Assembly (NCBI GenBank): GCA_025355505.1
Contig: JANXZM010000023.1
Location: 1 to 64,000, forward strand
Length of the DNA: 64,000 nt
From: Acidobacteriaceae bacterium
GTDB taxonomy: Bacteria > Acidobacteriota > Terriglobia > Terriglobales > Acidobacteriaceae
Direction of reading: 5' to 3'
The number at the start of each line of letters is the position of its first letter. The stretch's first letter is position 1. The position numbers were made by a program, and so were the translations under genes. Positions 479 through 40,092 of the stretch are shown here, in pieces. The notes beneath the pieces were generated by a model. The model worked only from the letters and a program-made list of their open reading frames with translations, had not been told where the DNA came from and ran no database searches.

Positions 479-1297
479 TTAGTGCGTATTAAAGGAGAGG
501 TCGGTCGGGGCGTTGGGAGTTTGGGATTCATCCGTAGCCGTGAAGCTGGTAAATCCGTAGTCCACATCGGAACCAGCAGAACCTTGGTAGTAGAACCCCA
601 TGCCCGGATTCCCAGTCTTATAGCGATTCAGGGGGTCTGTGCCCTGAAGCACCCGTATGCCGTTGATCCAAATCGTGATTGTGTTCCCAACAATGCTGGC
701 ACTGACCACATCTCCCTCATGCAGTCCCGGCCCCATCGCAGAACCTATTCCACCGAATTGATTGAGCGGGCCATTCCAGTGGCCAAATTGAACGTAGGTG
801 TCAGGCCCGGTAAGGCACCGGAAGTTAATTTCGTAGCCGGTTGTAAAGTGTGGCGAAATGGTCCCCCTCAGCCACAGTTCCACTTCCTCGTAGGTGCTTC
901 CACCTTGCTGGTTTACCGTGTGGACCGTAGCGGTAGCCATCTGGTCCGGATTCCAAGTCCCCTTGAGTAAGGCTACCGCATCGTTGTAGGGAGGCCCGGT
1001 CGGTGGAACCTGCGTGCCGAACGCCAGTCCCTTGGTTGTTCTAACATCAGACCAGTCCAAACCGTCCGTCTTACCGTTTGTCCACTTGCCAACCTCGGAA
1101 ATGGGATCTTCGGTGAGCAAGAAGTTAGTGGTGTAGGTTCGGTGCTTCCCTTGGGGCCACGGGTTCCCGTGCATCCCGCCTGGAGCACAAGCGATGGGCA
1201 GGATACAGAGAAGCAGCGCGATGATTAATCCGAGCACCCGTCCAATGACGAACCTGCGTGCCGGGCCCTTGCAATCTATAAGGAGACAGTCAGGCAT
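479..1297 (-). CDS. Putative exported (lipo)protein with concanavalin-like / LamG-like fold
   Basis: The protein has 272 residues. Residues 15-37 form a hydrophobic export signal that ends in LPIAC, a possible but imperfect lipobox, so it is either secreted or lipid-anchored. The mature part is rich in beta-strand and aromatic residues (for example ISPHFTTGYEINFRC, VQFGHWNGPLNQFG, NTITIWINGIRVLQG). This resembles the concanavalin A-like beta-sandwiches that bind or hydrolyse glycans. I cannot name catalytic residues, so carbohydrate binding is an inference. It is the last gene of the minus-strand EPS locus. A downstream start is possible because the first 14 residues are unusually charged and cysteine-containing. 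Confidence 0.6.
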   Translation of the reverse strand: MPDCLLIDCKGPARRFVIGRVLGLIIALLLCILPIACAPGGMHGNPWPQGKHRTYTTNFLLTEDPISEVGKWTNGKTDGLDWSDVRTTKGLAFGTQVPPTGPPYNDAVALLKGTWNPDQMATATVHTVNQQGGSTYEEVELWLRGTISPHFTTGYEINFRCLTGPDTYVQFGHWNGPLNQFGGIGSAMGPGLHEGDVVSASIVGNTITIWINGIRVLQGTDPLNRYKTGNPGMGFYYQGSAGSDVDYGFTSFTATDESQTPNAPTDLSFNTH

Positions 1298-1390
1298 AAG
1301 ACATTTCTTTGCGTCCAGTTAAAGGCTTCCGCGGCCAAGGGGAGCCAAGGAATAGCCAGGCAAATAGCGAGTGCTAGCCGCACGAGCCGA

Positions 1391-1726
1391 CTAGGGAACC
1401 TGCACCTTCACTTCGCCGGAATATCTGCTTTCACGGCCTGCCTGGTCAAGTGCGGTCACGACGTAAGAGTAGGTTCGTCCGCTGTTGACCAACCGATCTT
1501 CATACTGCCGACTAGGGACGCGGGTGGCAACTCGTGCGTATTGCGTCCCAGACGTGGTGCTGCGATATACGTTGTAGCCCACCACGGTGACACCTTGGAG
1601 GGGCGGAGGTGCTTGCCAGCTGAGCGTGACGCTGTGAGACCGGACATCTCGGCGCAGCCACATGCTCCCGCCAATCGCCAGCACCACGCATGCTCCCAGC
1701 AGAACTCCGATTCGGATCGCTTTCAT
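1391..1726 (-). CDS. Small membrane-anchored fibronectin type III domain protein
   Basis: The 111-residue protein starts with an uncleaved-looking signal anchor (residues 5-24, then RRD). One FnIII domain follows: VTLSWQAPPPLQGVTVVGYN, the strand motif YNVYRS, then RTYSYVVTALDQAGRES, which is the classic C-strand and F-strand pattern. FnIII modules act as spacers or binding domains in extracellular and glycan-acting proteins. Here the domain stands alone, displayed outside the membrane. It lies between the exported beta-sandwich gene and a broken GT39 gene. It could be a free-standing remnant of a larger surface protein, but the frame is intact from ATG to stop. Confidence 0.7.
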   Translation of the reverse strand: MKAIRIGVLLGACVVLAIGGSMWLRRDVRSHSVTLSWQAPPPLQGVTVVGYNVYRSTTSGTQYARVATRVPSRQYEDRLVNSGRTYSYVVTALDQAGRESRYSGEVKVQVP

Positions 1727-1884
1727 GCTCTACGTTACTCTTCCCGACTCCGTAGGTTCTTGGGGGTGCGACCTACTGGCATCATTTTGTTCCCGTTGTA
1801 CATCGGATCTCCCCTATCCGCACAAATCCGTTCAATGGGAGATATGGACTACAAAACGGTCACTCTTGGCCGTCCCGTTCCGCC

Positions 1885-2543: not shown

Positions 2544-4022
2544 CTAAGTCGAGGCCAGAAGCCCCTCCTCGACCGATGAACGTCCTCCAAATTCTCGGAG
2601 GAGGTCCATGTAGAACGGTTTCTGTCCCATGACGTACAAGAGCATCCCGAGATATGCGGACAAGACCACAGCGACCCCTAATACAAGTCTGGGCAGTGGA
2701 GTAAGTAGAGAACCGTAGAGTAACTGCAATCCAAAGGCTAACCCTGCGCCCACAATACCCGAGAGCAGCGGTCGACTCGCAACCAGCAGAATGTCGCGGA
2801 GGGAAATCATGGTACCGCGGGTAGCCCATGCGACCAACGGAATGACGGACAGCATCATCACCGCTGAATAGGCACACGCGACACCCTTGGGGCCGTAAGG
2901 CAAGCCGATCAGATAGCCGGCAATCATGACAGGCCCGAGGACCAGAGCAATCTTTAGACCCCTTTCGACCAATCCGAGCGAAGAGAGCAGCCATCCTAAG
3001 GGATTGACAATGGCAAAAGCCAAGGTGGTTGGAGCGAGCAAGCGAAAGACAACCGCCGCGCTTTTCCACTTCGGCCCCAGGAAAACGAGAATCATGTCAT
3101 CCGCAAAAAGAGCGCAAGTAAAGGTGATGGGGACGGTCAGAGACAGAACCAGAGAATAGCCTTTCAAGAAATAGCTCTTGAGGCGAGCCGGTTCGCCCTG
3201 GAGTCTGGATAGGGCTGCAAAAGCCACACCGCCGGCGGCTGAATTCAGGTTTTCGGTTGGAATGTTAATGAGCTGGTAGGCCCTTCCGTAGAGTCCCAGC
3301 GCATCGACGCCCCAGAAGCGCCCTAACAGGATTTTTTCGAAGTTGCTGGCGATATACATGACCAAGCCATTCAGCGTGAGAGTGCCGCCAAAACGCATCA
3401 TGGAACGCACTCCCACCTGTTTGTGCGGCCTTCCGGGAACCCATGCCGTGGTCAGCCAGAGACCTACGGTGCAGACCAGTGGGGTGACAGTCGTGGTGGC
3501 GACTAGAGCCCAGTATCCGAAGCCATGGGTGGCCATGGCAATTGCAATCGACGTGCCGGCTAACAAAGAGACAAAGTCGATTACCGACAAGGTGGTGAAA
3601 CGCATCTGGCGCTCAAGCAGAGCTGTGTGCTGTACGCCCGCCGCGTTGAAGAAAAATGCCGTCGCCAAAACCGTCGTTACGCCGAACAGACGCTGTTCGT
3701 GATAAAAGGCGACGACAAATGGCGCCATCGCCAGTGCCAGGAGCCCGAGGATTGCGCCAACCAACAGGTTGATCCAGAACAGCGTTGAAGACTGTTCCTC
3801 GGTGACGGTTGTACGCTGAACCGCGGCTGCCGAGAGTCCGAAGTCCCTGAACACATTGAAAGCGCCAAGCACGGCGGTAACCATGCCCACCAGACCAAAA
3901 TCCTTGGGGTCCAGGAGTCGGGCCAAGATCATCAGCGAGCCCATTCGGAGCAGGAAATTGGCTCCTTGGGAACAGATCTTGGCGAAACCACCACGAATCG
4001 TCCGCCGCTTCAAATCCTTCAT
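2544..4022 (-). CDS. Polysaccharide flippase, Wzx/MOP superfamily (first copy)
   Basis: The 492-residue polytopic inner-membrane protein has about 14 predicted hydrophobic segments, typical of the WzxC-like branch. The N-terminus MKDLKRRTIRGGFAKICSQG is followed by a long membrane helix and LARLLDPKDFGLVGMV, the family hallmark. MOP flippases move undecaprenyl-diphosphate-linked oligosaccharide units from the cytoplasmic to the periplasmic face before polymerisation. It lies 73 bases downstream of the PIG-L deacetylase gene. A second flippase of the same branch is at 19839-21434, so the locus may export two different repeat units, or one copy may be left over from a merger of clusters. Confidence 0.9.
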   Translation of the reverse strand: MKDLKRRTIRGGFAKICSQGANFLLRMGSLMILARLLDPKDFGLVGMVTAVLGAFNVFRDFGLSAAAVQRTTVTEEQSSTLFWINLLVGAILGLLALAMAPFVVAFYHEQRLFGVTTVLATAFFFNAAGVQHTALLERQMRFTTLSVIDFVSLLAGTSIAIAMATHGFGYWALVATTTVTPLVCTVGLWLTTAWVPGRPHKQVGVRSMMRFGGTLTLNGLVMYIASNFEKILLGRFWGVDALGLYGRAYQLINIPTENLNSAAGGVAFAALSRLQGEPARLKSYFLKGYSLVLSLTVPITFTCALFADDMILVFLGPKWKSAAVVFRLLAPTTLAFAIVNPLGWLLSSLGLVERGLKIALVLGPVMIAGYLIGLPYGPKGVACAYSAVMMLSVIPLVAWATRGTMISLRDILLVASRPLLSGIVGAGLAFGLQLLYGSLLTPLPRLVLGVAVVLSAYLGMLLYVMGQKPFYMDLLREFGGRSSVEEGLLAST

Positions 4023-4095
4023 CGTGTTGTCACACTGCTCGGGTGGATATCAGCCTCCTTATCTTGATCTTGTTCTTGATGTGTCGCTCGCAAAC

Positions 4096-4749
4096 TCAGA
4101 GCACCAACTTGCGGCAGTAAAAGGCCTCAGCGTAACCACTGGGGGCGTTACATTCCATACCGCGCAGCCGCATGAGGGAAAGAAAGGTGTTCTCCTCAAA
4201 CCAGCGCTTGGTGTGCTGGGACTGAAAGGCATCCATGATGTACTGAACTTTCTTCTTGCACACGTCGGATTCAAGCGGCACGAACACGCTCGGTTGTCCC
4301 AAGTCGCCGTCATACTTCGGAACTTCGTACTCCAGGATGAAATGGTCGCGAAACGCATTCCACGTCAGTTCCGAGATCAGCCGGTGGTCCTGATGCGCAT
4401 CCTTTCGGTTGTGAGTAAAGATGACGTCCGGCGAGATTGTCTGCTTCAGTTCTTCGAAAACGTTTTTTACATCCGCACCCACAAATGGCATGAAAGTATC
4501 GGGGAATTCCTTAAACAGGGAACGCTCCATCCGCTTGGAGCCGACGAACGATTCGGCCCCGCGCTGCGCCTCAGCTTTCCGGACTCCGATGGCGCTGAAC
4601 ACCACCCAGTGAAATGTGCACCCCGGGTACTGCTCGATCAGCCGGAGTATCGTGCCGCCACAGCCAATTTCGATGTCGTCGGAATGCGAGCCCAGACATA
4701 AAACCTTTAAGGCTCCGTCCGTCCCACTACCGAGATTCAGTTTGATCAT
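4096..4749 (-). CDS. PIG-L / LmbE family zinc-dependent N-deacetylase
   Basis: The protein has 217 residues. The zinc-binding motif AHPDDxE appears as SHSDDIE (His22, Asp24, Asp25, Glu27), and the second metal motif appears as HQDH (119-122). Family members remove N-acetyl groups from GlcNAc-containing lipids, mycothiol precursors or antibiotics. In this locus the substrate is probably a nucleotide- or lipid-linked amino sugar in the cytoplasm, since no signal peptide is present. Removing an acetyl group would expose an amine that the locus's acyl or aminoacyl transferases could modify, which is an inference from context. It lies 65 bases after the FAD amine-oxidase-like gene. Confidence 0.88.
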   Translation of the reverse strand: MIKLNLGSGTDGALKVLCLGSHSDDIEIGCGGTILRLIEQYPGCTFHWVVFSAIGVRKAEAQRGAESFVGSKRMERSLFKEFPDTFMPFVGADVKNVFEELKQTISPDVIFTHNRKDAHQDHRLISELTWNAFRDHFILEYEVPKYDGDLGQPSVFVPLESDVCKKKVQYIMDAFQSQHTKRWFEENTFLSLMRLRGMECNAPSGYAEAFYCRKLVL

Positions 4750-4814
4750 AGGCTAGCCGCTATCACTTCCGAGTCACTTGAGAATGATGTTTGTGCTGTC
4801 TACGGACAACAACG

Positions 4815-6137
4815 CTACTTTGCGCACGCCACTCCCGATAGAGCGCGCTCTGCGGCGAGTTCTCCGCTCTTGAAACTCTCGTCTGTCCACATGTATCCCC
4901 ATTCCCCGTACCGGCCACAATAGGCGATACCGAGATCATCGAGATAGCCGTGCACCGTCTTGAGTGCAGCCGCGCGCTCCAGGTCGAAGATGATATTGGC
5001 GTATCGGAGCAACATCGCCTGGCTGGACAGGATCTTATCCTCATCCCGCAGGAGGCCGCAGCGGCGGAGATCCCTGATGACAGGCTCAATCCAGTCCTCG
5101 GGTGCGCCGGTGAAGGGCTTGTATTTGTGAGAGAAGTAGACTTCCGCCTGAATGCTTCCAGCACCCGGAGGCGCGTTCTTGGAGGAGAGCATGTGCGGGA
5201 AGCCCAGGCGGGCAAAGCAAATGTCCTCGTCGTAGAAGTAGGTCATATGCGCGCGGGAAATGTCCTCGCGATTCACACCGATGTTCACGACAACGCAGGT
5301 TGAGCAAGCCAAACGCCGGGAGGCGTCGACGACATCAGGCGGCGCTGCCTGAATCATGCGAATCAGATCGGGCAGCGGTACCGACGAGACCAACCGATCA
5401 TAGTGCGTCACCAGACCATTCGAGAACGTGAGCTGTCGCGTGCGAGGATCGATCGATACCAGCTCATGATTGAGTTTCAGGTTTCCCAGCGGGACAAATT
5501 TCTTCAGGTAGCACATGAATCCACCGTCGCTGGGGTAGCGGAAGTGGGTGATGTAATGAACCTGCGGAGCCGCCGCCGAGAGGGCTCCTCGCAGGACTTC
5601 CTCTAGACTCGGACGATAAATACGTGGCCCCAGCCAATCGGTGCTCATGTTCTCGGCCGTGGTGAGGTGGTACTTTCTCGTGTACTGCATCGGAAAGAGC
5701 TCGGCGAACGTCCGGCCAAAACTCGCCAACAACCAATCCGCGTAGTTCTTCACGGGGCGCTCTGGTGCCTGGCGCTCCTCAACGAAGTCGGCGATAACCT
5801 TGATGATGACATCTTCCGGCAGTCCGTGGAGGTGGATTTGCGCCGGATGCAGGGGCCAGTGGCCACGCCAGTAGTTGTTCAGATTGATCTGTATGGTCTC
5901 GTACCGCTGATCAACACTGTCGGCAAAGAGCTGCTGAATTCGGAGATCCTTGGTATAGGAAATGTGTGGCCCAACGTCGAAGATAAAACCGCTCTCGTAG
6001 CGGAATGACGCTGTGTGACCGCCGTAGTAGGCGTTCTTGTCATACATCACAGGTGTGATGCCCTCAGTGTGCAGTCGATGTGCAGCACCGAACCCGGCCA
6101 TCCCACTTCCCAGGACCACGATATTTGGCGTTGGCAT
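4815..6137 (-). CDS. FAD-dependent amine oxidase / protoporphyrinogen-oxidase-like protein
   Basis: The 440-residue protein has an N-terminal Rossmann FAD motif, VVLGSGMAGFGAAHRL, followed by the acidic ribose-binding end and a GG doublet (YYGGHTAS). The C-terminal region includes the second FAD-contact strand (YGEWGYMWTDESFKSGELAA). This architecture is shared by flavin amine oxidases and UDP-galactopyranose mutase-like proteins in polysaccharide clusters, and a ring-isomerising or sugar-oxidising role is possible. I do not see the specific active-site residues needed to call a UDP-galactopyranose mutase. It lies between the PIG-L gene and rfbG, so a role in making an unusual sugar is likely but unproven. 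Confidence 0.75.
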   Translation of the reverse strand: MPTPNIVVLGSGMAGFGAAHRLHTEGITPVMYDKNAYYGGHTASFRYESGFIFDVGPHISYTKDLRIQQLFADSVDQRYETIQINLNNYWRGHWPLHPAQIHLHGLPEDVIIKVIADFVEERQAPERPVKNYADWLLASFGRTFAELFPMQYTRKYHLTTAENMSTDWLGPRIYRPSLEEVLRGALSAAAPQVHYITHFRYPSDGGFMCYLKKFVPLGNLKLNHELVSIDPRTRQLTFSNGLVTHYDRLVSSVPLPDLIRMIQAAPPDVVDASRRLACSTCVVVNIGVNREDISRAHMTYFYDEDICFARLGFPHMLSSKNAPPGAGSIQAEVYFSHKYKPFTGAPEDWIEPVIRDLRRCGLLRDEDKILSSQAMLLRYANIIFDLERAAALKTVHGYLDDLGIAYCGRYGEWGYMWTDESFKSGELAAERALSGVACAK

Positions 6138-6206
6138 TGAAAGACTTCTCCTATTTCGTATGATCTACGTCTGGTCACCGCCCCGGGGGATAGGCGGCTT
6201 TACCAT

Positions 6207-7292
6207 CTAGCTTCCGTTCTTCGGGAGGGTCTCATACTGCTCGATTTGCTTTCGGGTAATCCGTTGAAGATCGTCCCCAGCATGGAAAGTACGGTACCAC
6301 TCGACGATCCATTCAAGCGCCGACTTCAAGGGCAGCACTGGATGCCACCCCAAGTAAGCTTTCGCCTTTGAGGCGTCTAGCTTGAGAGCGTGAGCCTCGT
6401 GCGGGTGCGCCGCGGTATCTTGAGTCCATACGGCCCCTTTTCCCCACGACCGTACCAGTTCATCCGCAATCCACGACACCGGCTTTGCGTCGGTGTCGAT
6501 GGGGCCGAAGTTCCATCCCGAGGCAAAACGAGGCCCGTCTTCCGTGAGTCGTTCCGCCAGCATGAGATATCCGCGCAGCGGCTCCAGCACAAACTGCCAT
6601 GGCCGGAACGCCGCAGGATTTCGGATCAGACAGGGCTCGCCCGCAAGGAACGCTCTGATCAGATCGGGAATAAGCTGGTCACTCGTCCAATCACCACCAC
6701 CAATCGCATTTCCGGCACGAGCGCTGCCGAGAGCAACGCCGTGTTGCCCATTTGACTCAGGCGGAAAAAACGATTCCCGGTACGCCGTGGTTACGAGTTC
6801 AGCACAGCCCTTCGAGTTCGAGTATGGGTCCCGCCCGCCCATGGGCTCGTTCTCGCGATAACCCCAGACCCACTCACGGTTCTCGTAGCACTTGTCACTG
6901 GTGACGTTGACCACTGCGCACGGCTGTTTTAGCTGCCGAACAGCCTCCAGAAGATTCACCGTCCCCATAACGTTCGATGAGTAGTTTTCGATGGGATCCT
7001 CGTAGCCGCGACGCACAACAGTCTGCGCCGCCATATGAATCACTACTTCGGGACGGCACTCGGCGATTGCACTTTTAAGCCGCGAAAAGTCCCGGATGTC
7101 GGCGCGAATCGAGCGGACTGTGCCTGCAACTCCCGCCTGCTCGAACAGGTTCGGCTGGGTCGGCGGATCAAGCGCATAACCAGTAACGTTGGCGCCCAGC
7201 GCATCCAGCCATAGCGACAACCAGCTTCCCTTGAAGCCGGTATGTCCGGTGAGGAATACCCGGCGTCCCTTCCAGAACGAACGGTTAAGCAT
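6207..7292 (-). CDS. rfbG: CDP-glucose 4,6-dehydratase
   Basis: This is an extended short-chain dehydrogenase/reductase of 361 residues. It converts CDP-D-glucose to CDP-4-dehydro-6-deoxy-D-glucose. The NAD motif TGHTGFKG is at residues 15-22, the catalytic threonine region TSDK at 131-134, and the YxxxK pair is Tyr157/Lys161 (DPYSNSKG). I chose ATG 7292 because homologues begin just before the FWKGRRVFLTG strand. The open frame extends upstream to a TTG at 7316, which adds eight residues without family support. It lies 27 bases after the SAF oxidoreductase and two genes after rfbF, which supplies its substrate. RfbH, the usual next enzyme toward 3,6-dideoxy sugars, is absent from this window. 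Confidence 0.93.
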   Translation of the reverse strand: MLNRSFWKGRRVFLTGHTGFKGSWLSLWLDALGANVTGYALDPPTQPNLFEQAGVAGTVRSIRADIRDFSRLKSAIAECRPEVVIHMAAQTVVRRGYEDPIENYSSNVMGTVNLLEAVRQLKQPCAVVNVTSDKCYENREWVWGYRENEPMGGRDPYSNSKGCAELVTTAYRESFFPPESNGQHGVALGSARAGNAIGGGDWTSDQLIPDLIRAFLAGEPCLIRNPAAFRPWQFVLEPLRGYLMLAERLTEDGPRFASGWNFGPIDTDAKPVSWIADELVRSWGKGAVWTQDTAAHPHEAHALKLDASKAKAYLGWHPVLPLKSALEWIVEWYRTFHAGDDLQRITRKQIEQYETLPKNGS

Positions 7293-7319
7293 GATTGGTC
7301 CAGGAGAACAACACAAACC

Positions 7320-8657
7320 TCATCGAACCCCTCCCGCAGGTACGGGCTGCAGTGACGATTCCTGTGATCGGTGCGTTGCAACCGGCCAGCACGCGTTCTG
7401 TTCCTGCCAGAGTTTTTCGACCACCCCTCCAGGAATTCCCTCGACATCATCGAAGGAAAGGATCTCATCCTTCGCAACGTTTCGACGCAACACGCGACCG
7501 TCCGAGAGACCAATTGGCAAGGCTGACATACCGCGAGCCGCCGACGCGTTGTCGATGAGTCCGTAGGTGCAGAACCCCCCGACGCCATCCAGACGTTCGC
7601 CCGCTTTCAGATCACGCTTGGCGACGGTTACGACTTCGCAGACTGGGCCGGCGATGGGCGCGACAGTCGGATCACGATGGATGACCGCTCGGCCAATGGT
7701 CGACGCGATCTGGAGGTGAGGCAGATGAAACGGTGTGTAGAAAACGTAGAATGGACCGTCTCCGAGCTTGTAGTAAGCCAGTTGCACCTTCTTGAGCGGT
7801 GAGTCCTCGTGAACCACGACAAAGGCGCCAGTATGAGGAGCCGCGCCCAGCGCGTAGTCGACAAGACCGGTCTCCAGCATTTGTTTGGCGGGCAGCAGGT
7901 TCGCAATCTCCCTCACATAACCGCAGGGTGGACCGTACATGCCACGGCGGCCAACGTGGAATCCCGTCGCATTGGAGAGGACGGTCGCCTCCATTGACAG
8001 CTTCGTAGAATCGGCAAACGACGTGACCTTTTTGACATCCTGGTCATGCTTTTCTGCAAATACCCGCTGCGTATCCGGCGTTCGATAGTAGTCGACCATG
8101 CCTTTAATGTTGCCCGCAGCCACCGTACGGAGTCCCAGGGTTCGCAGATAACGAAGCAGGGTCATCGCAACTCCCGGTTCGTCTCCGTCGGTATGCGTGA
8201 CCACGACCCCGGCCTTGTCCGCCTTTTCCTTCAGAATGGGGCCGATCAGCGAATCAAGTTCGGCGTTCACAAGAACCACATGCTTGCCGTGATCGAACGC
8301 ATCCAGAACTACACGGGCTGCGGGCTCGACGGTACCGGTCACTTCCAGCAACACATCAATCGCGTCACAACGCGTCAACACCGACGGATCATCGGTCAGC
8401 ACCGGCAATCCTCGGGCGATTGCCGCTTCCGCTTGATGTGCGGAGTCAACGCGGCTCCACTTTTCGGTGCCAGCTTCCCGGAACGCCCGCTCGCCGTGCT
8501 CCGGTGTCCGGTTGGCGATGGCAACAAGCCGCATCCCCGGCACCGGCGTTCCAAGCTGCAGTGCGATGGCTCGGCCCGTAGCGCCGGCTCCAACCATTCC
8601 GACGCGAATCGGCCGACCCGTAGCCTCAAGCTTCTGAAGGGCGGTATCAACACTCAT
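7320..8657 (-). CDS. NAD(P)-dependent oxidoreductase with homoserine-dehydrogenase-like Rossmann fold and C-terminal SAF domain
   Basis: The protein has about 445 residues. The N-terminus carries a dinucleotide-binding motif, VGMVGAGATGRAIA, followed by a homoserine-dehydrogenase-like middle (GKHVVLVNAELDSLIGPILK, HTDGDEPGVAMTLL). The C-terminus has a SAF (antifreeze-like/FlgA-like) segment, KRDLKAGERLDGVGGF. I place the start at the second ATG (8657) because AGGAG sits six bases upstream of it and only two bases from the first ATG (8663). The gene is sandwiched between rfbF and rfbG, so it probably acts on a CDP-sugar or a branched-chain derivative. No specific reaction is established that I can name. 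Confidence 0.8.
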   Translation of the reverse strand: MSVDTALQKLEATGRPIRVGMVGAGATGRAIALQLGTPVPGMRLVAIANRTPEHGERAFREAGTEKWSRVDSAHQAEAAIARGLPVLTDDPSVLTRCDAIDVLLEVTGTVEPAARVVLDAFDHGKHVVLVNAELDSLIGPILKEKADKAGVVVTHTDGDEPGVAMTLLRYLRTLGLRTVAAGNIKGMVDYYRTPDTQRVFAEKHDQDVKKVTSFADSTKLSMEATVLSNATGFHVGRRGMYGPPCGYVREIANLLPAKQMLETGLVDYALGAAPHTGAFVVVHEDSPLKKVQLAYYKLGDGPFYVFYTPFHLPHLQIASTIGRAVIHRDPTVAPIAGPVCEVVTVAKRDLKAGERLDGVGGFCTYGLIDNASAARGMSALPIGLSDGRVLRRNVAKDEILSFDDVEGIPGGVVEKLWQEQNACWPVATHRSQESSLQPVPAGGVR

Positions 8658-8821
8658 GGACATCTCCTATGCTCGGCCAGCGACCGGCTGCAATCCTGTT
8701 TATTTCCCCTTGAGTCTTCATCACGTTCTCACGCTGCCAGCGGCGCGGTCAATCGCGCGCCCTTGTAGAGAAATCAGACGCGCCTTCAGGCGCCGAGGCC
8801 GGAGATTGAACTCAGCAAACG

Positions 8822-9637: not shown

Positions 9638-9749
9638 GAGTGCCTCCTGTCGTGGCGAAAGGACGGTTCGTTGGAAAGAATAATCATCGTCAGCAGTGAC
9701 CTGCCCGCCACACCTGTCTCCTCACGCATGCGAAACCATTGCAGTCGCT

Positions 9750-12660: not shown

Positions 12661-12689
12661 AACTTCGTATCCGCGCGCGTATCCCGGAC

Positions 12690-29801: not shown

Positions 29802-29905
29802 AACGATGGGGATGGCTTTCTCTCGTACTGGAGCCGGCGCACAAAGGGCCGTCCCCTCTCGCGATTCCGACAACACCGCCCCCGGGAAAGCGGAATGCCT
29901 GACCA

Positions 29906-32582: not shown

Positions 32583-33509
32583 TCAGCCTTCGGTTAATGG
32601 GGGAGGAACTTCGGTTAAGTTTACCGTATTCTGGCCGTATCGCGAATAGTAGTATTGGTGCTCGCCGCTGCTGCAACTATTTACAACCAGACCTAACAAC
32701 GTTGAACGGTCCAGAGTTTCGACCGCCCTTTGCACTAGTTTCTTCTCACTGACACCTTCCCGGATCACAACGAGCACTCCGTCCGCAAGCTTCATCCAGA
32801 ACGTGGTATCCGCCACGGGAATGACCGGTGGAGTGTCAATGATGATCCAGTCGAAGAAGTTTCCCAGCCGGTCCAGCAGTTCCGGAAGGCGTCCGCTCTG
32901 CATCAGGTCGAGCGGGTTCTCGGGTGCGCGCCCGGCGGGGAGGAACCAAAGACCGGAGCCACTGAGTTTGTACACTACTTCAGAAAGTTGCCGCTCGCCG
33001 CGCAAACATTCGCTTAGTCCTGGCAAGGAACCGTCAAACCCAAATCGACTGGCCACGGTTGGCCGCCGCAGATCTCCGTCCAGCAGTAGCGTCTTCAAAA
33101 CCTTACTGCGCGACTGATTAAGCGCCAGATTGGCTGCAACCAGACTTTTGCCTTCTTCCGGGGCCGTACCGGTCACCACAATCCGTTTGAGCTTGCGTCG
33201 TTCGCGCAGGTTTCGCAGCTTCAACCCCAGCACGCGAAATTGTTCTGCCGCCAAGCCACCCTGATCCGTCAGACACACCAGCCTGGAATCTGCCGGCAAT
33301 GTGGGCAAGAGCAATTTCGCAGAGGCAAACGAATCCACACCTGGAGACTCTGGTATTGCCGCCGCCGGCAACTCGGAAAGAGATTGCCTGCGCTCGATTT
33401 CTTGTTCGACCCCTTGCAGCAGATCCGAGACCGAGTCGGCGCTTTTTGCCAAGCTTCCGCCTGACCGCTCGGCCTCTGCTCGCTGCAACGCTTCAAATAT
33501 ATAGCTCAT
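32583..33509 (-). CDS. CpsD/CapB-type tyrosine autokinase (BY-kinase)
   Basis: The protein has 308 residues from ATG 33509 (MSYIFEALQRAE). The P-loop GTAPEEGKS is at 114-122, Walker A' LLLDGDLRRP at 141-150, and Walker B WIIIDTPPV at 221-229. A tyrosine cluster (286-288 and 291) near the C-terminus is the expected autophosphorylation tail. No transmembrane segment is seen, so it needs a separate activator, most likely the Wzz-type protein encoded two genes upstream. Cycles of phosphorylation control polymer length and export. It starts 16 bases after the ExeA-like ATPase, suggesting coupled expression. Confidence 0.9.
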   Translation of the reverse strand: MSYIFEALQRAEAERSGGSLAKSADSVSDLLQGVEQEIERRQSLSELPAAAIPESPGVDSFASAKLLLPTLPADSRLVCLTDQGGLAAEQFRVLGLKLRNLRERRKLKRIVVTGTAPEEGKSLVAANLALNQSRSKVLKTLLLDGDLRRPTVASRFGFDGSLPGLSECLRGERQLSEVVYKLSGSGLWFLPAGRAPENPLDLMQSGRLPELLDRLGNFFDWIIIDTPPVIPVADTTFWMKLADGVLVVIREGVSEKKLVQRAVETLDRSTLLGLVVNSCSSGEHQYYYSRYGQNTVNLTEVPPPLTEG

Positions 33510-33525
33510 GTGGAAGCAACCCTGC

Positions 33526-34476
33526 CTATTGCAGCCTGCCTTTGGTCTCGGCTTGCTGCATGCGATCACGCACTTCGAGCAACGTCTTCACCGCCAGCAG
33601 GAGTTCGTTCTGCTCCTGTTCTTTCGACAGCCGCGCCGCACCGTTTTTCTGCTCCACGGCCACCACCCCGAGCCGCAAGTCCCGCGCGACGCCGTCAATG
33701 ATTTCGGGTGTAATCGTGGCCGCCTGCTTGGCATAGCCCGAGAGCAGCGCGTTTTCGCAGATGGTGTTGATCAGCCGCGGAATTCCCTGCGAGTGCCGGA
33801 ACACAGCCTCGATCGCCGGCTCGGAAAAAATCTTGTCGGTGGCCGCCGTCCCCGCAATCTGGAGACGGCGGGCCATATACGCCTTGGTTTCGTTCCAACT
33901 GAGCGGGTCGAGGTGGCAGCGCAACGCAATCCGTTGTTTTAGTTGCCGGAGTTCATGGGAATCAAGTTTCTGATCGAGTTCCGGCTGACCCGCCAGCACA
34001 ATCTGGAGCAATTTCTGCTGCGATGTTTCGAGGTTGGTTAAAAGCCGGATCTCTTCCAGTATTTCCGCCGACAGGTGGTGCGCCTCGTCCACCACCAGGA
34101 TCGTGGTCAATCCCTTCTGATGTCTCTGCAGCAGAAAGCCATTCAGCACGTGGATCAGTTCGTCTTTCGCTTTGCCAGTAACCGGCAATCCGAAATCGAG
34201 TGCGATATAGCGCATGAATTCGAGAGGCGAAAGCGTCGGATTAAAAATTAGAGCGAAAGCAACATCGCGGCGCTGCAGCAACCCCAGCAGCGAGCGCAGA
34301 ATGAGCGTCTTCCCCGTGCCCACCTCGCCCGTTAGAACGACAAATCCCCGGTGCGCTGTCACCCCGTAGTACAGCGAGGCGAGCGCCTCGTTGTGCCGCG
34401 TCGTAGGAAACAAGAACGACGGATCCGGTGTGATCTCAAACGGGTTGCGCTGCAGATTGTAGAAGCTCTTGTACAT
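33526..34476 (-). CDS. ExeA-like AAA+ ATPase of exopolysaccharide export
   Basis: The 316-residue protein starts MYKSFYNLQRNPFEITPDPS, the typical ExeA start, followed by the P-loop LTGEVGTGKT and Walker B ILVVDEAHHL. A sensor region follows (IVLAGQPELDQKL, QRIALRCHLDPLSWNETKAY), with C-terminal helices and a basic, coiled tail after residue 280. ExeA-type ATPases in EPS clusters pair with outer-membrane or chain-length proteins; the exact role is unclear. The gene is five bases from the Wzz-type gene and 16 bases from the BY-kinase gene, so the three form a tight export module. Confidence 0.88.
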   Translation of the reverse strand: MYKSFYNLQRNPFEITPDPSFLFPTTRHNEALASLYYGVTAHRGFVVLTGEVGTGKTLILRSLLGLLQRRDVAFALIFNPTLSPLEFMRYIALDFGLPVTGKAKDELIHVLNGFLLQRHQKGLTTILVVDEAHHLSAEILEEIRLLTNLETSQQKLLQIVLAGQPELDQKLDSHELRQLKQRIALRCHLDPLSWNETKAYMARRLQIAGTAATDKIFSEPAIEAVFRHSQGIPRLINTICENALLSGYAKQAATITPEIIDGVARDLRLGVVAVEQKNGAARLSKEQEQNELLLAVKTLLEVRDRMQQAETKGRLQ

Positions 34477-34481
34477 GATTT

Positions 34482-36074
34482 CTAGCCGTACAAATACGTT
34501 ACAGCCGATCCTAGCAGGATGAAACCCACGATCGCCACTGCCGCCACGCCTGCGATCCAGGCACTTCGCCGGTTGGACGACTGTTCCTCTAAGCTCTCGA
34601 TCGGCGGAATTTCCGCAATCACCTCGAAAGGAACCAGCTTCTTGATCTCACGCTCGCTATAAATCTTGCCACTCAGTTTTTCCTGGCTGAAAGCGAATAC
34701 CCCGCCGAACACGAACCCCACCGCCAATCCCGCCCCGCACAGCAGCAAACGGTTCGGCTTGTAGGGTCTGGCCGGGAGATTCGGCGGATCCAGCATACGA
34801 AAACGTTCACCCTGTTGCGTTTTCTCCAGGTCGGTCGACATTTCCGACTGGTTTTTCTTGGCCAGCAGTGATTCGTAATCGGCTTTCGACTGATCGTAGT
34901 CGCGCGTGACGTCGGCAAACTGCTGTTCCATCACCGGGGCCATGTTGAGCCGGCCCTGATATTGGTTGATCTTCGCTTGCTCGTCCTTGATTTCCGCTTC
35001 CCGGTTCGCGATTTCGAGGCGATTGGCCTTGAGCTGACTTTCCAGCTCCAGCAGCGGCGCGCTTTTCGGATCGAGCGGCGTAGTCGCGGCCGTTTCCGGA
35101 CTGGAACTACTCGCCCTGCTATTCATGTCAGCGATCATCCGTTCGCGCCTGCTCTCCGCCCGGGCAATCTGCTCTTTGGTCTTGCGGACGTCGGGATGTT
35201 TATCGGTGTAGTGAGAAGTCAAGTCGGCCAGCTGCGCCTTCAGTTGATCCAGCTCTTTGTCGATCGCCGCCAGCCCCACCGGCCCACCCTCACCCGGTTT
35301 CGAAGCGCTTCCCATGGCGCGATATTGATTGATCAGCGATTCCAGATAGGCATTCTGCTGCTTGGCCCGGTTGAGCGCGTCCTGGTTGGCTTGCACCTGA
35401 CTCTGAAGGCCGGCCAGGATCTGCAGATTGCTCTGGGTCTGGGTGGGCAACTCGCCCAGGTGTTGATCCTTGAACACGCGCATTTTCGATTCTTGTTCCG
35501 CAAGCTTTGCGCGTGCCTGATCGAGCTGATCCTGCAGGAAGCTGGTCGTATTTTCGGAGCGTTTCTGCCGTTGCTCGATGTTCTCGGTGATGAACAGGTT
35601 GGCCAGTTCGCTGGTCGCCGTCTGTGCCATCTTCGGATCGCGACTCGCGTAATAAATATTGAAAGCCGAGAGCTTCCTGTCGTCGCCATGCGAAAGCTCG
35701 ATTTCAATATCCTTACGCATTCTCTCCACCAGATCGTCCGGGCTCTTGTGCTTGCGCTCCTGGGCGTAAAGTCCGAGAGAGTCGATGATGCGGAGCAGGC
35801 GGGTACGGCTCATGATCTGCTGCGTAATGCTGTCCAGCTGGTGCTGTATGTCGCTGTCGACGTTCGAAACTACGTATTTCTCCGGCACTGAAGGCTGCTC
35901 GACCAGGATCAGCGTCCCCGAGCGGTAGGTCGAAGGGATCAGCCAGCTCGCACCCCACACCAGCAACCAGCCGCAGAAAAATGGCATCAGAAATTGCCAC
36001 CGGCGACGGCGGACCATTCCCTTGATCTCGGTGAAATCGATGGGTGCGCCTGTTTCTTCCTGTTGTTCTTCCAT
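34482..36074 (-). CDS. Wzz/GumC-type polysaccharide co-polymerase (chain-length determinant)
   Basis: The protein has about 530 residues and two membrane helices: one near the N-terminus (FFCGWLLVWGASWL) and one at the C-terminus (AGVAAVAIVGFILLGSAVTY). The large periplasmic part between them has long coiled-coil segments rich in Q, E and A (QRQKRSENTTSFLQDQLDQA, LNRAKQQNAYLESLINQY). A typical Wzz box lies after the first helix (STYRSGTLILVE). The start at 36074 avoids overlapping the OMP gene, while 36116 would add 14 residues. The protein sets chain length and activates the cytoplasmic BY-kinase encoded two genes on. Confidence 0.9.
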   Translation of the reverse strand: MEEQQEETGAPIDFTEIKGMVRRRRWQFLMPFFCGWLLVWGASWLIPSTYRSGTLILVEQPSVPEKYVVSNVDSDIQHQLDSITQQIMSRTRLLRIIDSLGLYAQERKHKSPDDLVERMRKDIEIELSHGDDRKLSAFNIYYASRDPKMAQTATSELANLFITENIEQRQKRSENTTSFLQDQLDQARAKLAEQESKMRVFKDQHLGELPTQTQSNLQILAGLQSQVQANQDALNRAKQQNAYLESLINQYRAMGSASKPGEGGPVGLAAIDKELDQLKAQLADLTSHYTDKHPDVRKTKEQIARAESRRERMIADMNSRASSSSPETAATTPLDPKSAPLLELESQLKANRLEIANREAEIKDEQAKINQYQGRLNMAPVMEQQFADVTRDYDQSKADYESLLAKKNQSEMSTDLEKTQQGERFRMLDPPNLPARPYKPNRLLLCGAGLAVGFVFGGVFAFSQEKLSGKIYSEREIKKLVPFEVIAEIPPIESLEEQSSNRRSAWIAGVAAVAIVGFILLGSAVTYLYG

Positions 36075-36091
36075 GTCTAAACTCGAATGAC

Positions 36092-37522
36092 CTACATTCC
36101 TAAGGGTTTGGCCCACTGATAGGACAGGGTCGCAAAAAACCGGTTTCGATGGGCGTCCGCGGCCAGCCCCGTCAGACCAATTTGTTGTTGAAAGTCGTGC
36201 GTGTAGCCCATGCGGAGCCCGATGCTCTTCCCGACGTTACGCTCCACCGAGATGCCAGCCGAAGTCAAACGCGCTGAACTCGAGCTCCCCTGGAAAGGTG
36301 TAAGCGACTCGCTTGTTCCGTGACTCGCGGTAACAGCGGCCGCCCAGCCCGGAACCAGTTCGCGCCGAAAATTGGCATGCACCGCCTGCAAACGCACCGA
36401 ACCCAAAACCCCGCCGCCATCGCTGATGCTGCGGGAGTATCCCGTGGACACGCTGGTCCGCTGGTCCGCCCATCCGCCTTCCGCGCCGCCAGCAATCGAC
36501 AAATCACTGGATTGAAACGGCGTCCCGCCGGGAGCGAACCGGTTCTCCACGTACTGCGGACCAATGAACCCGGTCAGCGTGACTCGTTTCGAAAGGCTCA
36601 GCGTGTTGACCACCAGAAAATTATGGGTCCGGGTCTCGCCGTTGGGATTGAAGGTAATGCGCTGGAAACCGTAGCTCACGCCGCCCCAGTCTCCGCGAAA
36701 GATCCGATGCAGCCAGAAGGCAGACCCCGACGCGGTTTGCGAATCCGTCAGCTGCTGCGCTCCTGTGGGCACGTTGGTGAAATGTAAATCGTAGAATGAC
36801 CCGCTTGCCCCAATCAAATCGTTCAAGGCAAAGTGATAGCTCGTCCCGACTGTCGTCAGACTGGATCTTTGCGTGGCCAGTGGGGTAAGCAAACTGGCAT
36901 TCGGACCGCCCGAGCCAATGACTCCGGCGCCATTGCCCCCGTCAAAAAATCCAGTGACCATGGAAAATTTTTCCGCGACCCGCAGATTCACGTGCGAGCT
37001 GAGCCGGTACTGCGAATCGAAATTAAAGTTGTGCGAACCCTGATTCTGGCTCTTGAGCATCTTGTTGTCGTTGATGGTCACGCCGCCAACGTACCCCAGT
37101 GTCCAGCGCGTTCGAGACGTCGATTGCTCAATGCTGAGGTTAGGGAAGATCGATACGCCGGTATTGCCTCCCCCACTTGAAAGCAGCAGCGGGTTATCGT
37201 CGTAGGCGGCACCCACACTCACCCCGCCGCGCAGGTAATTCGATCTTCCGATCTCGGAGAGGAACGCCGAAGAAATTCCCTTCCCCCCAAGCAGCGAAGG
37301 AATCTGGGGCGTATCGCTGCCACTATCCTCGACACCGCCTTCGGGCTGCATTCCGGCAATGGCCGAGAGCGGAGCAGCGGGAGCGGTTCTGTCACCGGCG
37401 CTGTCATTGCCCGGACTCTGGGCCGGCGGGTTCTGCGGAGCGGGGTTCTGCCCCGCCGAGAGCACCTGCAACCCAGCCATCATCCACACCAGAATCACCC
37501 AGCGTCGCATATTCATAACCAT
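36092..37522 (-). CDS. Outer-membrane beta-barrel protein of the EPS export module
   Basis: The 476-residue protein has a signal peptide (MNMRRWVILVWMMAGLQVLS). A proline-rich periplasmic linker follows, then a beta-barrel of alternating hydrophobic/polar strands from about residue 95 (NYLRGGVSVGAAYDDNPLLL). It ends RFFATLSYQWAKPLGM, similar to a C-terminal barrel signature. Barrels of this kind accompany Wza-like proteins in acidobacterial and proteobacterial EPS loci and probably form or support the outer-membrane exit route. The identity of the transported polymer and the exact barrel size cannot be read here. It lies 16 bases after the Wza-type gene. Confidence 0.82.
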   Translation of the reverse strand: MVMNMRRWVILVWMMAGLQVLSAGQNPAPQNPPAQSPGNDSAGDRTAPAAPLSAIAGMQPEGGVEDSGSDTPQIPSLLGGKGISSAFLSEIGRSNYLRGGVSVGAAYDDNPLLLSSGGGNTGVSIFPNLSIEQSTSRTRWTLGYVGGVTINDNKMLKSQNQGSHNFNFDSQYRLSSHVNLRVAEKFSMVTGFFDGGNGAGVIGSGGPNASLLTPLATQRSSLTTVGTSYHFALNDLIGASGSFYDLHFTNVPTGAQQLTDSQTASGSAFWLHRIFRGDWGGVSYGFQRITFNPNGETRTHNFLVVNTLSLSKRVTLTGFIGPQYVENRFAPGGTPFQSSDLSIAGGAEGGWADQRTSVSTGYSRSISDGGGVLGSVRLQAVHANFRRELVPGWAAAVTASHGTSESLTPFQGSSSSARLTSAGISVERNVGKSIGLRMGYTHDFQQQIGLTGLAADAHRNRFFATLSYQWAKPLGM

Positions 37523-37538: not shown

Positions 37539-38204
37539 CTACGGAATCACCACCGTATCGCCAGCTTGCAGGCGGATGTTTTGCTCCGGATTCTTGCCTT
37601 TGATCACTTCTTTGAAGTTGAACAAAATTCGTTGCTGCGTTCCGTCCGCAGCTTGTCGAAGAACATACATCGACTTCTGCTTGGCGAAGTCTTTAAAGCC
37701 CCCGGCCATCGCAACCGCATCGAGCACGGTGGTCGAGCTCGTCAATAAATAGGCGCCGGGTCGAGCCACCATACCCAGGATGTTCACCTTCTGGCTCTTG
37801 CTATCGGTAACGATGACCGTGACTTCAGGCTCGGAAATGAAGCTCTGCAGGCGTTTTGTAATCTCTTGTTCTAGCTGCCGTGGCGTCTGCCCGCCCGCCT
37901 GCAACTCGCCGACTAACGGCAAAGAAATCTTTCCATCGGAACGAACCGGAACGGAACGCGAGATGTCAGGTTCTTTCCAAACATTGATGGCCAGCACATC
38001 GTTGGCCCCAATCACGTAGGAACCATCCGAATGTGCGGCTGGCGAGCCTTCCCCAGGCTTCGCTCCCGCTTGCTTCTCGGCTGCAGCGGCTGCGGGCGCC
38101 GCAGGTCGCGATCCAGGATCGGATTGCGCGAAAGCTCCGATCGACACCAGCACCAGAAGCGTCAGGACCGGCATGATTCGATAGGCCGTCATCGATTGTG
38201 TCAT
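37539..38204 (-). CDS. Wza-type polysaccharide export protein (small)
   Basis: The protein has about 221 residues. A signal peptide (MTAYRIMPVLTLLVLVSIGA) is followed by an Ala/Pro-rich linker. The Poly_export domain follows: YVIGANDVLAINVWKEPDIS, PVRSDGKISLPLVGELQAGG and VNILGMVARPGAYLLTSSTT, where the last starts a SLBB domain. At about 220 residues it is shorter than E. coli Wza (about 380), with only one clear SLBB unit and no obvious lipobox cysteine. The neighbouring barrel may supply the outer-membrane pore. The gene starts at ATG 38204 or 38210, and lies 123 bases after the AAA+/Fis regulator. Confidence 0.88.
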   Translation of the reverse strand: MTQSMTAYRIMPVLTLLVLVSIGAFAQSDPGSRPAAPAAAAAEKQAGAKPGEGSPAAHSDGSYVIGANDVLAINVWKEPDISRSVPVRSDGKISLPLVGELQAGGQTPRQLEQEITKRLQSFISEPEVTVIVTDSKSQKVNILGMVARPGAYLLTSSTTVLDAVAMAGGFKDFAKQKSMYVLRQAADGTQQRILFNFKEVIKGKNPEQNIRLQAGDTVVIP

Positions 38205-38333
38205 AGGCAATCCCTCTTAGCTATTCCCCGGTTCATTAGCTGCTGGTTCAATATATGCTGGTTCAATCGTGTTTCGTTCAATCCTAGCTGCGCAATGCCA
38301 TCTGCTTCCATCGTAGCCGCTTCCGTGACAACG

Positions 38334-39434
38334 CTATTTCGCTTGCCGCATACCATCGGTACCAAGAAGTCGCCTGGCCTCTGCCGGCGGCGCCAGGTGG
38401 TACTCCTGAATCTTGTACAGCAGCGCACGATAGCTGACATTCAGTAAACGAGCTGCCGCTTTCCGGTTCCAGTGCGTCTGTTCCAGGGTATGGGCAATCG
38501 CGCCCCGCTCGGCTTCCCCTTTTGCGTTTCTTACCAGTAACTTCAGAGACGACCTTGCTTCCGATGGGTGCAGGTTCAAAGAGTGAACGTCGGATGGGTG
38601 AGCGCTGGTTTTCGCGCGCCCGTTCCCATTCCCACCCTTGGCTGCGGACCCGTAATCGGGACGCGAATGTAATTCCTGCAACGCCGAGTCTTCATCGCCG
38701 TGCGCCAAAAAGCGTTTGGCAAAATTCTCCAGTTCGCGCAGGTTGCCAGGCCACCCATAGTGCTGGCACGCGTCCAGCAACACGCTTGAAAAGCGCGGGG
38801 CCGGCACGCCATAGCGCCGGGTCAGCCGGTTCATCACGTGCCCCAGCAGCAGCGGGATTTCCTCGTGCCGCTCCCGCAGAGGCGGCACGCGCAATTCGAA
38901 AACGCTCAAGCGGTAGAACAGCTCTTCCTGAACTCTCTTCTCCGCCGCTGCCAACTCCAGATCGCCGCACGTGGCCGCGATGATGCGCACATCCGCCCGG
39001 ATCGGGTTCTGTCCCCCGCACCGCACAAATTCTCCCGTCTCCAGCAATTTCAGAAGCCGCCGTTGCACCGCACCCGGCATGGCATCGAATTCGTCCAGCA
39101 AGATCGTTCCCTTGGCACACTGCTCCAACTTCCCTAACGTCGATTCCGGCTGCCCCTTGGCGGAACTGTGCTCGTAACCAAACAGTTCATTCTCCAGCAA
39201 ATCGGAGGTGAGCACCGCGCACTTGACCCGTATGAAGGGAAAGCTGGAACGAATCGAAAGCGAATGGATCAGCCGGGCCGCGGTCGTCTTCCCGCTTCCT
39301 GCTTCTCCGGTAATCAGCACCGGCACGTCCGTCTGCGAGAGTAATTCCGCTTGCGCACGCAGCCGACGTGTCGCCGGGCTGGCCGCAATGAAATACAACT
39401 CCTCGCTGATTCGCTCGATTTCTGGTTGATACAT
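38334..39434 (-). CDS. AAA+/Fis-type transcriptional regulator with degenerate sigma-54 contact loop
   Basis: The protein has 366 residues from ATG 39434 (MYQPEIERIS). It has the enhancer-binding ATPase core: Walker A GEAGSGKT at 43-50, Walker B ILLDEFDAM at 111-119, arginine-finger region LRERHEEIPLLLG, and a C-terminal Fis-like helix-turn-helix (AARLLNVSYRALLYKIQEY). The N-terminal receiver or PAS sensor is missing. The GAFTGA loop that contacts sigma-54 is replaced by GYEHSSAKGQ (86-95), so contact with sigma-54 is doubtful. It may instead repress, or act through another partner. It is the second gene of the EPS locus. Confidence 0.85.
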   Translation of the reverse strand: MYQPEIERISEELYFIAASPATRRLRAQAELLSQTDVPVLITGEAGSGKTTAARLIHSLSIRSSFPFIRVKCAVLTSDLLENELFGYEHSSAKGQPESTLGKLEQCAKGTILLDEFDAMPGAVQRRLLKLLETGEFVRCGGQNPIRADVRIIAATCGDLELAAAEKRVQEELFYRLSVFELRVPPLRERHEEIPLLLGHVMNRLTRRYGVPAPRFSSVLLDACQHYGWPGNLRELENFAKRFLAHGDEDSALQELHSRPDYGSAAKGGNGNGRAKTSAHPSDVHSLNLHPSEARSSLKLLVRNAKGEAERGAIAHTLEQTHWNRKAAARLLNVSYRALLYKIQEYHLAPPAEARRLLGTDGMRQAK

Positions 39435-39534
39435 GATTTTAAGAGGACGGGTCGCTTGCGGTTTGCCTACGAGCTTCAACTGCTTGGATTGGCAGACTGC
39501 AAAATTCTTTAGCCTAACTCTTCCGGCTTTCCCT

Positions 39535-40092
39535 TCAGACTGGCTCTACGTCGTACCCATCAATTCGGACGGCCATCGACCGCTGAATCGCATCCACGGA
39601 AATAATCAGGCTGTGATCGCCGTTCTCCGACAGAAACACGCCTTCCACGCCGTCCATCGCCCCACCGCGCACTCGAACACGCTGCCCCACCTTTAGGAAG
39701 GGGTACGAACGCCAGGGCGCCGTCTGCGCCAGAACCTTCTGGATGCTTTCAATCTGGTCATCTGGAATCGGCAGGCTCGCTCCGCGCGTGCCCACAAAAC
39801 CGTGCACGCTCTCCACCTGGTACACCCGCGTCCGGTCTTCCGCGCTCAAAGCGCAACGGATGAACACATAGCAACTGAACAGCGGCACTTCAACTTTCTT
39901 CTTGCGATCGCTCCACCGATGCACTTCCATCGTGCTCGGCATGAACGTTTCCATGCCTTGATCGCGCAAACGCCGCTCGATCGCTTTTTCATGGCGCGCT
40001 CGGGTGTGCAGCGCGTACCAGCGCATCTCTTCCTGCGATACCAATGGGCTCAGCCCGCTCTCCACTTCGTAGCTCTGATCCGGGGTACTCAT
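39535..40092 (-). CDS. NusG-like specialised transcription antiterminator (UpxY/LoaP/RfaH type)
   Basis: The protein has 185 residues from ATG 40092. The NGN domain starts at MRWYALHTRARHEKAIERRL and includes DQGMETFMPS and VPLFSCYVFIR, and the KOW domain follows with VGQRVRVRGGAMDGVEGVFL. General NusG is encoded with ribosomal protein genes, but this copy is the first gene of a 39.6-kb polysaccharide locus. That matches UpxY, LoaP and RfaH paralogues, which let RNA polymerase read through long operons. A leader of about 340 bases separates it from a promoter candidate (40435-40464). Function is inferred from family and position. Confidence 0.9.
   Translation of the reverse strand: MSTPDQSYEVESGLSPLVSQEEMRWYALHTRARHEKAIERRLRDQGMETFMPSTMEVHRWSDRKKKVEVPLFSCYVFIRCALSAEDRTRVYQVESVHGFVGTRGASLPIPDDQIESIQKVLAQTAPWRSYPFLKVGQRVRVRGGAMDGVEGVFLSENGDHSLIISVDAIQRSMAVRIDGYDVEPV

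Follow-up and report, generated by a model that had tools for sequence, protein, structure and literature searches.

A conserved 24-nt element, a putative ops-like loading site, accompanies UpxY-family NusG paralogues at polysaccharide loci of Acidobacteriota and other phyla

How a specialised NusG paralogue could reach the RNA polymerase that transcribes its own polysaccharide operon, and how far downstream its effect would extend, are the questions raised by a locus of an Acidobacteriaceae bacterium (GenBank assembly GCA_025355505.1, contig JANXZM010000023.1). In the stretch that we analysed, positions 1 to 64,000 of this contig (the window), a run of genes from 40092 down to 479 begins with a gene for such a paralogue (39535-40092, minus strand). 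A first-pass annotation, made from the letters alone, had proposed that the run is read as one processive transcript under antitermination, and had recommended searching the leader for a conserved hairpin. This search was rewarded by a strongly conserved 24-nt element, TGKRASTSANAGGGCGRAGCTRTR, on the minus strand at 40113-40090, where it overlaps the start codon of the paralogue. We consider it probable, from the sequence comparisons described below, that RNA polymerase pauses at this block and is there loaded with the UpxY-type paralogue, much as happens with RfaH at ops. According to Wang et al. 2020 (PMC7593976), it is not known how some of the NusG paralogues encoded in operons are recruited.

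The paralogue has 185 residues, and its frame is open to 40140. Its match to the NCBIfam model NF033644 antiterm_UpxY (129.5 bits over residues 25-178, cut-off 100) places it in the UpxY family, and it matched the NGN domain PF02357 at 1.2e-22. It stayed below the cut-offs of the models for RfaH (TIGR01955, 81 against 144.5), LoaP (NF033641, 51.7 bits against 125) and NusG. The first-pass annotation had read an NGN and a KOW domain in this protein. The NGN domain is borne out; no KOW Pfam match appeared at E 0.001, but the AlphaFold2 (AF2) model, with a mean predicted local distance difference test score (pLDDT) of 77 and a predicted template modelling score (pTM) of 0.57, places a beta C-terminal domain, as in KOW, behind the NGN domain. 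The alpha-helical, autoinhibiting C-terminal domain that is a trait of RfaH was not found, strands being predicted at 138-184 from an alignment of only 23 sequences. In a Foldseek search with the model, NusG structures rank highest, and RfaH-ops complexes appear at rank 15 and below. No upxZ is adjacent, the neighbour being a gene for a sigma-54 activator; two UpxYs of B. fragilis are likewise without UpxZ (PMC7593976). The paralogue gave the sole PF02357 match in the source assembly, whereas most near-complete relatives have a second, higher-scoring one; the housekeeping nusG is therefore probably absent from the assembly through a missing contig.

The last three bases of the element, TGGGACCCAGAGGGCGAAGCTATG (40090-40113, minus strand), are the start codon of the paralogue. 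Its core at 40094-40100 is GCGAAGC, a GNA-loop mini-hairpin sequence, and T 40091 and G 40090 form the candidate pause site. In a MAFFT alignment of 12 orthologous leaders two blocks are conserved, namely ATGGGACCCAGAGGGCGAAGCTATG at the start codon and a promoter-like block about 100 nt upstream. The latter (40212-40240, minus strand) reads TTGCAA, 17 nt, TAGTGT, with a second TTGCA in the spacer, 10 bp on. Across 14 orthologous leaders the TTGC repeat is present in 14 and the TA at -10 in 12, and the element lies 93-189 nt downstream of the block; the 10-bp-period TTGCAC repeat and promoter-like block are not in the loci L124 and L126. The CTTGCACGnnnTTGCA block of the nearest orthologues resembles a -24/-12 site, but compared with the sigma-54 consensus it has a spacing one base short and TG for GG, and it was not accepted as a sigma-54 promoter. 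A TTGCAC-N17-TAnnnT reading fits better, and the block may be a sigma-70-like or a near-miss sigma-54 site.

A check that did not depend on a search pattern used 56 leaders, a subset of all paralogue matches, whose paralogues had been recognised from protein similarity or from a PF02357 match. Of these leaders, 47 carry the core GCGRAGC (33 of 42 without the 14 nearest orthologues) and three its reverse complement. When the 56 leaders were shuffled 200 times with dinucleotides kept, a mean of 3.7 carried the core and the largest number was 9. The bases flanking the core are G..T in 32 leaders, G..C in 8 and A..T in 7, all able to pair, with only about one mispair expected by chance. The core is found in 5 of 30 housekeeping nusG leaders and in 2 of 31 other gene starts of the locus. 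A second group of paralogues (L157, L167, L169, L170, L171 and L174) has the same core with a different flank, of the GCTAAGCGGGGCTAGCGAAGCT type, and in all six a sigma-54-like site of the TGG-N10-TGCA type lies about 180-250 nt ahead of the conserved Trp codon.

A 19-nt piece of the element occurs once each in 16 of 61 relatives (11 exact), every one ahead of an independently listed PF02357 match; the reversed pattern gave 9 scattered matches. A wider pattern, run on 399 genomes of the host's class, matched at 109 sites, exactly so at 37, and these are spread over 82 genomes; the reversed-pattern control matched at 12 sites, one in each of 12 genomes, and never exactly. Seventy-five of the 109 stand at the start of a paralogue gene, where the open frame spans the site in 36, opens no more than 22 nt on in 28 and 23-240 nt on in 11. 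Six are beside a paralogue (two with one 674-683 nt downstream, four with one upstream on the same strand), two are truncated by the end of their contig, although a paralogue start is still visible at one of these, and 26 are without a paralogue; none of the 12 control loci has one. At one locus (L242, genome G298), two copies 136 nt apart precede a single paralogue.

Polysaccharide-type genes follow within about 2.1 kb at 20 of the 26 sites without a paralogue, 15 of them recognised by Pfam and 5 by 69-82% identity to a scanned sibling. Their types are Bac_transf, Wzz/GNVR, GT1, Polysacc_synt_2, Gfo/Idh, sulfotransferase, Poly_export, amidotransferase and epimerase, and no such gene was among the 10 scanned at control loci (10 of the 12 loci, one gene each). 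The remaining six (L238, L254, L273, L275, L293 and L311) lack a polysaccharide-type gene; at L275, partly as read by eye, two response regulators come next. The 20 sites come from 18 genomes, each of which has, anywhere in the genome, one or more paralogue-like PF02357 matches (under 90 bits, our own cut). Seven of the 20, all in other genomes, have a paralogue 2.3-26 kb upstream, encoded on the same strand of the same contig, and may thus be second loading sites.

The logo of 103 sites found by the pattern, 6 of the 109 being dropped, has one sharp block, T-G-K-R-A-S-T-S-A-N-A-GGGCG-R-AGC-T-R-T-R. Outside positions -1 to 22 the information is mostly below 0.2 bits (0.39 at -2, 0.24 at -5 and up to 0.40 at 23-25). 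The T at -1, which is outside the search pattern, is present in 98 of the 103. A longer RNA structure around the element was discarded in view of this low flanking information, a CCCTGT-AAGTG-ACAGGG hairpin being present in some sites only. A coding role, as WDPEGEA before Met, was also discarded: in the 75 heads the paralogue keeps no fixed reading frame with respect to the element, the three possible frames having 49, 19 and 7 cases.

The element is not confined to the host's class. One Nitrospira genome has five exact sites. Among 68 genomes of its class, 26 have the element, with 34 sites in all (23 exact), and the control pattern found none. Of these 34, 26 are at a paralogue start, 4 have a paralogue 427-535 nt downstream and 4 have none. 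The Nitrospira paralogues form one clade (Shimodaira-Hasegawa-like approximate likelihood ratio test, SH-aLRT, 99), and elements of the GGGAC and GTAAG types are present in both Acidobacteriota and Nitrospirota. The core is upstream of the paralogue in none of 21 Bacteroidota stretches; an absence of the element from Bacteroidota was nevertheless overturned, since in some it lies downstream of the paralogue gene. Sites with up to two mismatches were found in 9 of 21 Bacteroidota, Balneolales or Marinimicrobia genomes (12 sites, 3 exact; 3 control matches), and in five Bacteroidota or Marinimicrobia loci (L048, L053, L073, L087 and L088) the element lies 42-67 nt after the stop codon of the paralogue. 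Among six new loci from Bacteroidota, Balneolales and Marinimicrobia, one more has the element 635 nt after the paralogue frame and two are without a paralogue. In a 99-genome sample across the host's phylum, six genomes have sites, four of them outside the class; one of these four sites (L335) is 63 nt after a paralogue frame, and the other three have no paralogue in the 2.2-3 kb read.

RNA polymerase pauses at a consensus of the form G-11 G-10 ... T-3 G-2 Y-1 G+1, and the element combines bases of this consensus with a position linked to the paralogue. In the mechanism that we propose, the polymerase would start about 100 nt upstream of the element and would meet a consensus-type pause with GG at -11/-10, T at -3, T at -1 and R at +1. 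The paralogue would then bind the non-template GCGRAGC exposed in the bubble, which may take the form of a GNA-loop mini-hairpin, and recognition of the upstream half TGKRASTSANA (about -22 to -12) would take place on duplex DNA. Once loaded, the paralogue would remain on the polymerase and, as an antiterminator, may carry it through the polysaccharide genes over a length that we discuss below.

The closest comparison is with RfaH and its ops or JUMPstart elements in Enterobacteria, where likewise a NusG paralogue, polysaccharide operons among its targets and an element in the leader come together. The paralogue differs from RfaH in being encoded in its own operon and in the C-terminal domain, which the model predicts as beta and not alpha-helical. 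The ops sequence, GGCGGTAGCGTG, is not in the leader, which has GGCGAAGCTATG as its element, and the Rfam JUMPstart model RF01707 gave no match at gathering in the window nor at E up to 10 on 40050-40350. In ops, the pause-inducing TG stands at 11-12, the C3:G8 pair closes a loop and T6 is flipped into RfaH; substitutions of C3-G8 reduce or abolish RfaH recruitment, but C3-G8 is dispensable for pausing (PMC5995543). When the element is aligned TG on TG with ops, as GGCGRAGCTRTG, the TG and, at the same distance from it, the GGCG coincide, and a small non-template loop lies between GCs in both (GC-GGTA-GC in ops, GC-GRA-GC here). On the other hand, the loop of the element is one base shorter and has no counterpart of T6, so recognition must differ, and the element has a conserved upstream half in addition. 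A paper on aptamers (PMC4686876) describes DNA mini-hairpins in which a GNA or GNNA loop is closed by two or more G-C pairs, among them GCGAAGC, which melts at 78 C. The core of the element is of the GNA type and the ops core GCGGTAGC has GNNA-type letters, a likeness that we infer from the sequences.

UpxY of the Bacteroides capsule loci belongs to the same NCBIfam family and is also the first gene of long polysaccharide loci. Its signals there are locus-specific, whereas here one consensus is shared across genomes; in addition, the present locus has no UpxZ alongside and a sigma-54 activator as its second gene. Bacteroides UpxY reportedly (Saba et al. 2024) recognises the paused polymerase through non-template DNA and upstream duplex DNA. 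PMC12691694 cites Saba et al. 2024 for the upstream duplex contact; the conserved left half of the element would fall on the upstream duplex. UpxY is reported to prevent early termination in the leader (PMC7315117, PMC7819879). LoaP of Bacillus is likewise an operon-linked NusG paralogue and antiterminator, but the present paralogue is far below the LoaP cut-off, and LoaP reportedly works with a hairpin in the leader at which no pause can be discerned (PMC12691694). More tentatively, and with rather less than even confidence, we propose that operon-specific NusG paralogues of several phyla share an old loading code, consisting of a pause site and a GNA- or GNNA-loop mini-hairpin in the non-template DNA. 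In this case, ops (GC-GGTA-GC) and the element (GC-GRA-GC) would be two settings of the code, differing by the base that RfaH flips out, and extra copies, whether within loci or in front of further polysaccharide operons, would reload the factor or extend its regulon.

Several results weigh against a loading site of this kind. The core is lacking in nine of the 56 leaders (L145, L149, L151, L152, L153, L164, L165, L166 and L173), five of the 30 housekeeping nusG leaders do carry it, and the 56 leaders are mutually related. At the stringency used, 317 of the 399 class genomes have no site. Because the logo sites were found by pattern and six were dropped, some of the invariance at the pattern positions follows from the search itself, whereas the T at -1 and the set of 56 leaders are independent of the pattern. 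The genes after the sites were judged to be of polysaccharide type once they were known and with several genes per site, and L245 (Gfo/Idh) is ambiguous. ViennaRNA, run with DNA parameters, folded neither GGGCGAAGCTATG nor GGGCGGAGCTATG stably (0 kcal/mol, a value that a scrambled loop gives as well), and the nuclear magnetic resonance (NMR) work on ops speaks of a single base pair (PMC5995543). RfaH homologues with a beta C-terminal domain that are encoded near their target operons are reported to act without ops (PMC13015549, a 2026 preprint); considering that the paralogue is predicted to be beta like these, it might need no loading site.

Two other explanations would assign the 24 nt a different role. 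The element may act as RNA, either as a translation-control or ribosome-binding signal or as a hairpin bound by the paralogue in the manner of LoaP. It does overlap the start codon here, its AGAGGG could pair with 16S rRNA, GCGAAGC can fold as RNA too, and in 42 of the 75 heads its last triplet is an in-frame ATG, GTG or TTG. In the other 33, however, this triplet cannot be the start of the paralogue, and the copies after the stop codon in five Bacteroidota or Marinimicrobia loci, together with the twenty paralogue-less sites ahead of polysaccharide-type genes, speak against such a reading. On these three grounds a mere ribosome site of the paralogue was rejected. The little conservation around the 24 nt speaks against a long shared RNA structure, and the LoaP score of 51.7 bits against 125 against a LoaP-like protein. 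We regard an action as RNA as unlikely. We would give still less credit, and only a slim chance, to a double-stranded operator of some other regulator of polysaccharide operons. The sharp 24-nt edges and the left half, which is partly palindromic (GTGACTCAC in some sites), would suit an operator, but the element lies downstream of the promoter-like block by 93-189 nt in the 14 orthologues, is oriented towards the downstream gene and accompanies NusG paralogues across phyla.

A further alternative concerns the length of the transcript and is compatible with a loading site: the paralogue and element would be real but would act on the leader and locus head only, and the 39.6 kb would consist of several transcription units with their own promoters. 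We take this as a serious contender that falls somewhat short of an even chance. The locus has a conserved head followed by mosaic genes, gaps of 158-817 nt and a sigma-54 regulator gene inside, and the seven sites 2.3-26 kb downstream of a paralogue in other genomes look as if loading were repeated. The first-pass annotation had counted roughly 30 genes, all on one strand, with several gaps over 150 nt, and this was confirmed by gene calling on open reading frames (ORFs) in the window, which gave 32 calls, all on the minus strand, and five such gaps (162, 223, 277, 158 and 817 nt). This one-strand order, which the homologues found in relatives G016 and G013 share, argues against several units, as do the single copy of the element in the window and the sigma-70-like and terminator-like matches, which are no commoner than in shuffles (37.5 kb of the window scanned; 20001-24000 left out). 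What stands of the first-pass proposal is that a specialised UpxY-family paralogue heads a long polysaccharide locus; a single processive 39.6-kb transcript stays conjectural, in view of the mosaic downstream genes, the contig edge and a tRNA-like sequence in mid-locus. The window starts at base 1 of the contig, so that the left end of the locus is the contig edge, 39.6 kb is a minimum and the locus may be longer. A single transcript of this size had been thought striking for Acidobacteriota, but the size by itself is not so, since a polysaccharide locus predicted to have 30 genes in Phocaeicola vulgatus likewise starts with an upxY (PMC13114119).

A published description of the element did not turn up in a literature search that covered mainly titles and abstract openings and left most subscription papers outside its scope. 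We consider the element a new form of a known kind of signal, since recognition of the paused polymerase by UpxY is already reported for Bacteroides. Standing beside paralogues in Acidobacteriota, Nitrospirota, Bacteroidota and Marinimicrobia, a 24-nt consensus would offer experiments a definite target and would allow the target operons of the paralogues to be listed from sequence, and its natural loop variants would help to work out how NusG-like proteins read the non-template strand.

Synteny was compared with four relatives (G016, G013, G008 and G034). The head of the locus, with its eight genes in the order NusG paralogue, sigma-54 activator, export gene, 36092-37522, chain length, ATPase, tyrosine kinase and sugar transferase, is kept in G016, G013 and G008, including the sigma-54 activator as second gene. 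In G034 the paralogue and leader element head a different cluster without the sigma-54 gene. The middle is mosaic, with gene orders that differ between relatives. The order of the terminal cassette (11542-12783 to 2544-4022) is kept in G016 and not in G013, and the G008 stretch stops short of it. At 61-81% identity to G016, the cassette is at or above most of the middle, and the comparison indicates a module on its own. Among these four relatives, then, what stays constant is the paralogue with its leader, and what varies is the set of sugar genes.

Most of the 32 gene calls have polysaccharide-type Pfam or NCBIfam matches, and all features named here are on the minus strand unless stated. Behind the paralogue, the second gene (38334-39479) matched profiles for a sigma-54 activator AAA+ domain and a Fis-type helix-turn-helix (HTH), without a receiver domain. 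It is followed by a Poly_export/SLBB polysaccharide export protein (37539-38210; best NCBIfam match TIGR03027 XrtA export, below cut-off), an XrtA-type chain length determinant (34482-36116; TIGR03007, over cut-off), an XrtA-type ATPase (TIGR03015, below cut-off) with a tyrosine autokinase (TIGR01007, over cut-off) at 32583-34476, and an initiating sugar transferase (31296-32471; Bac_transf). The variable middle (15602-31150) encodes glycosyltransferases, FemAB/GNAT proteins, an amidotransferase, a Wzy-like protein, a Wzx flippase, a deacetylase-GT fusion and a beta-helix protein. The CDP-sugar cassette (2544-12783) contains 11542-12783, rmlC-like, GT2, rfbF-like, DRL, CDP-glucose 4,6-dehydratase, oxidoreductase, PIG-L and flippase genes. 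The locus thus resembles XrtA/PEP-CTERM export loci in its chain-length gene over the TIGR03007 cut-off and in related ATPase, kinase, FemAB and export genes, but the other XrtA models are below cut-off. Two exosortases were found, on another contig (C109) away from this XrtA-like locus.

Inside the run, a degenerate tRNA-Thr(CGT)-like sequence with CCA (24779-24853) overlaps the end of a GNAT ORF. Its score is the lowest of the 41 tRNAs in the genome and a canonical tRNA-Thr(CGT) lies elsewhere, which makes a working gene doubtful; the sequence may be the remnant of an insertion. In three relatives, the corresponding search of 60-kb stretches showed no tRNA-Thr and one tRNA-Ile. The longest plus-strand ORF of the span (10819-12927, 702 residues) overlaps rmlC and 11542-12783 and has no NCBIfam match, and these two genes beneath it have homologues in G016 that are 73% and 69% identical. 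Upstream of the locus, a divergent gene on the plus strand (40724-41797) encodes a LuxR-type response regulator. Between it and the locus lies an inverted repeat, TTGCA-ACCTA-TGCAA (40559-40573), which is partly conserved in an alignment read by eye and is a possible upstream activator site.

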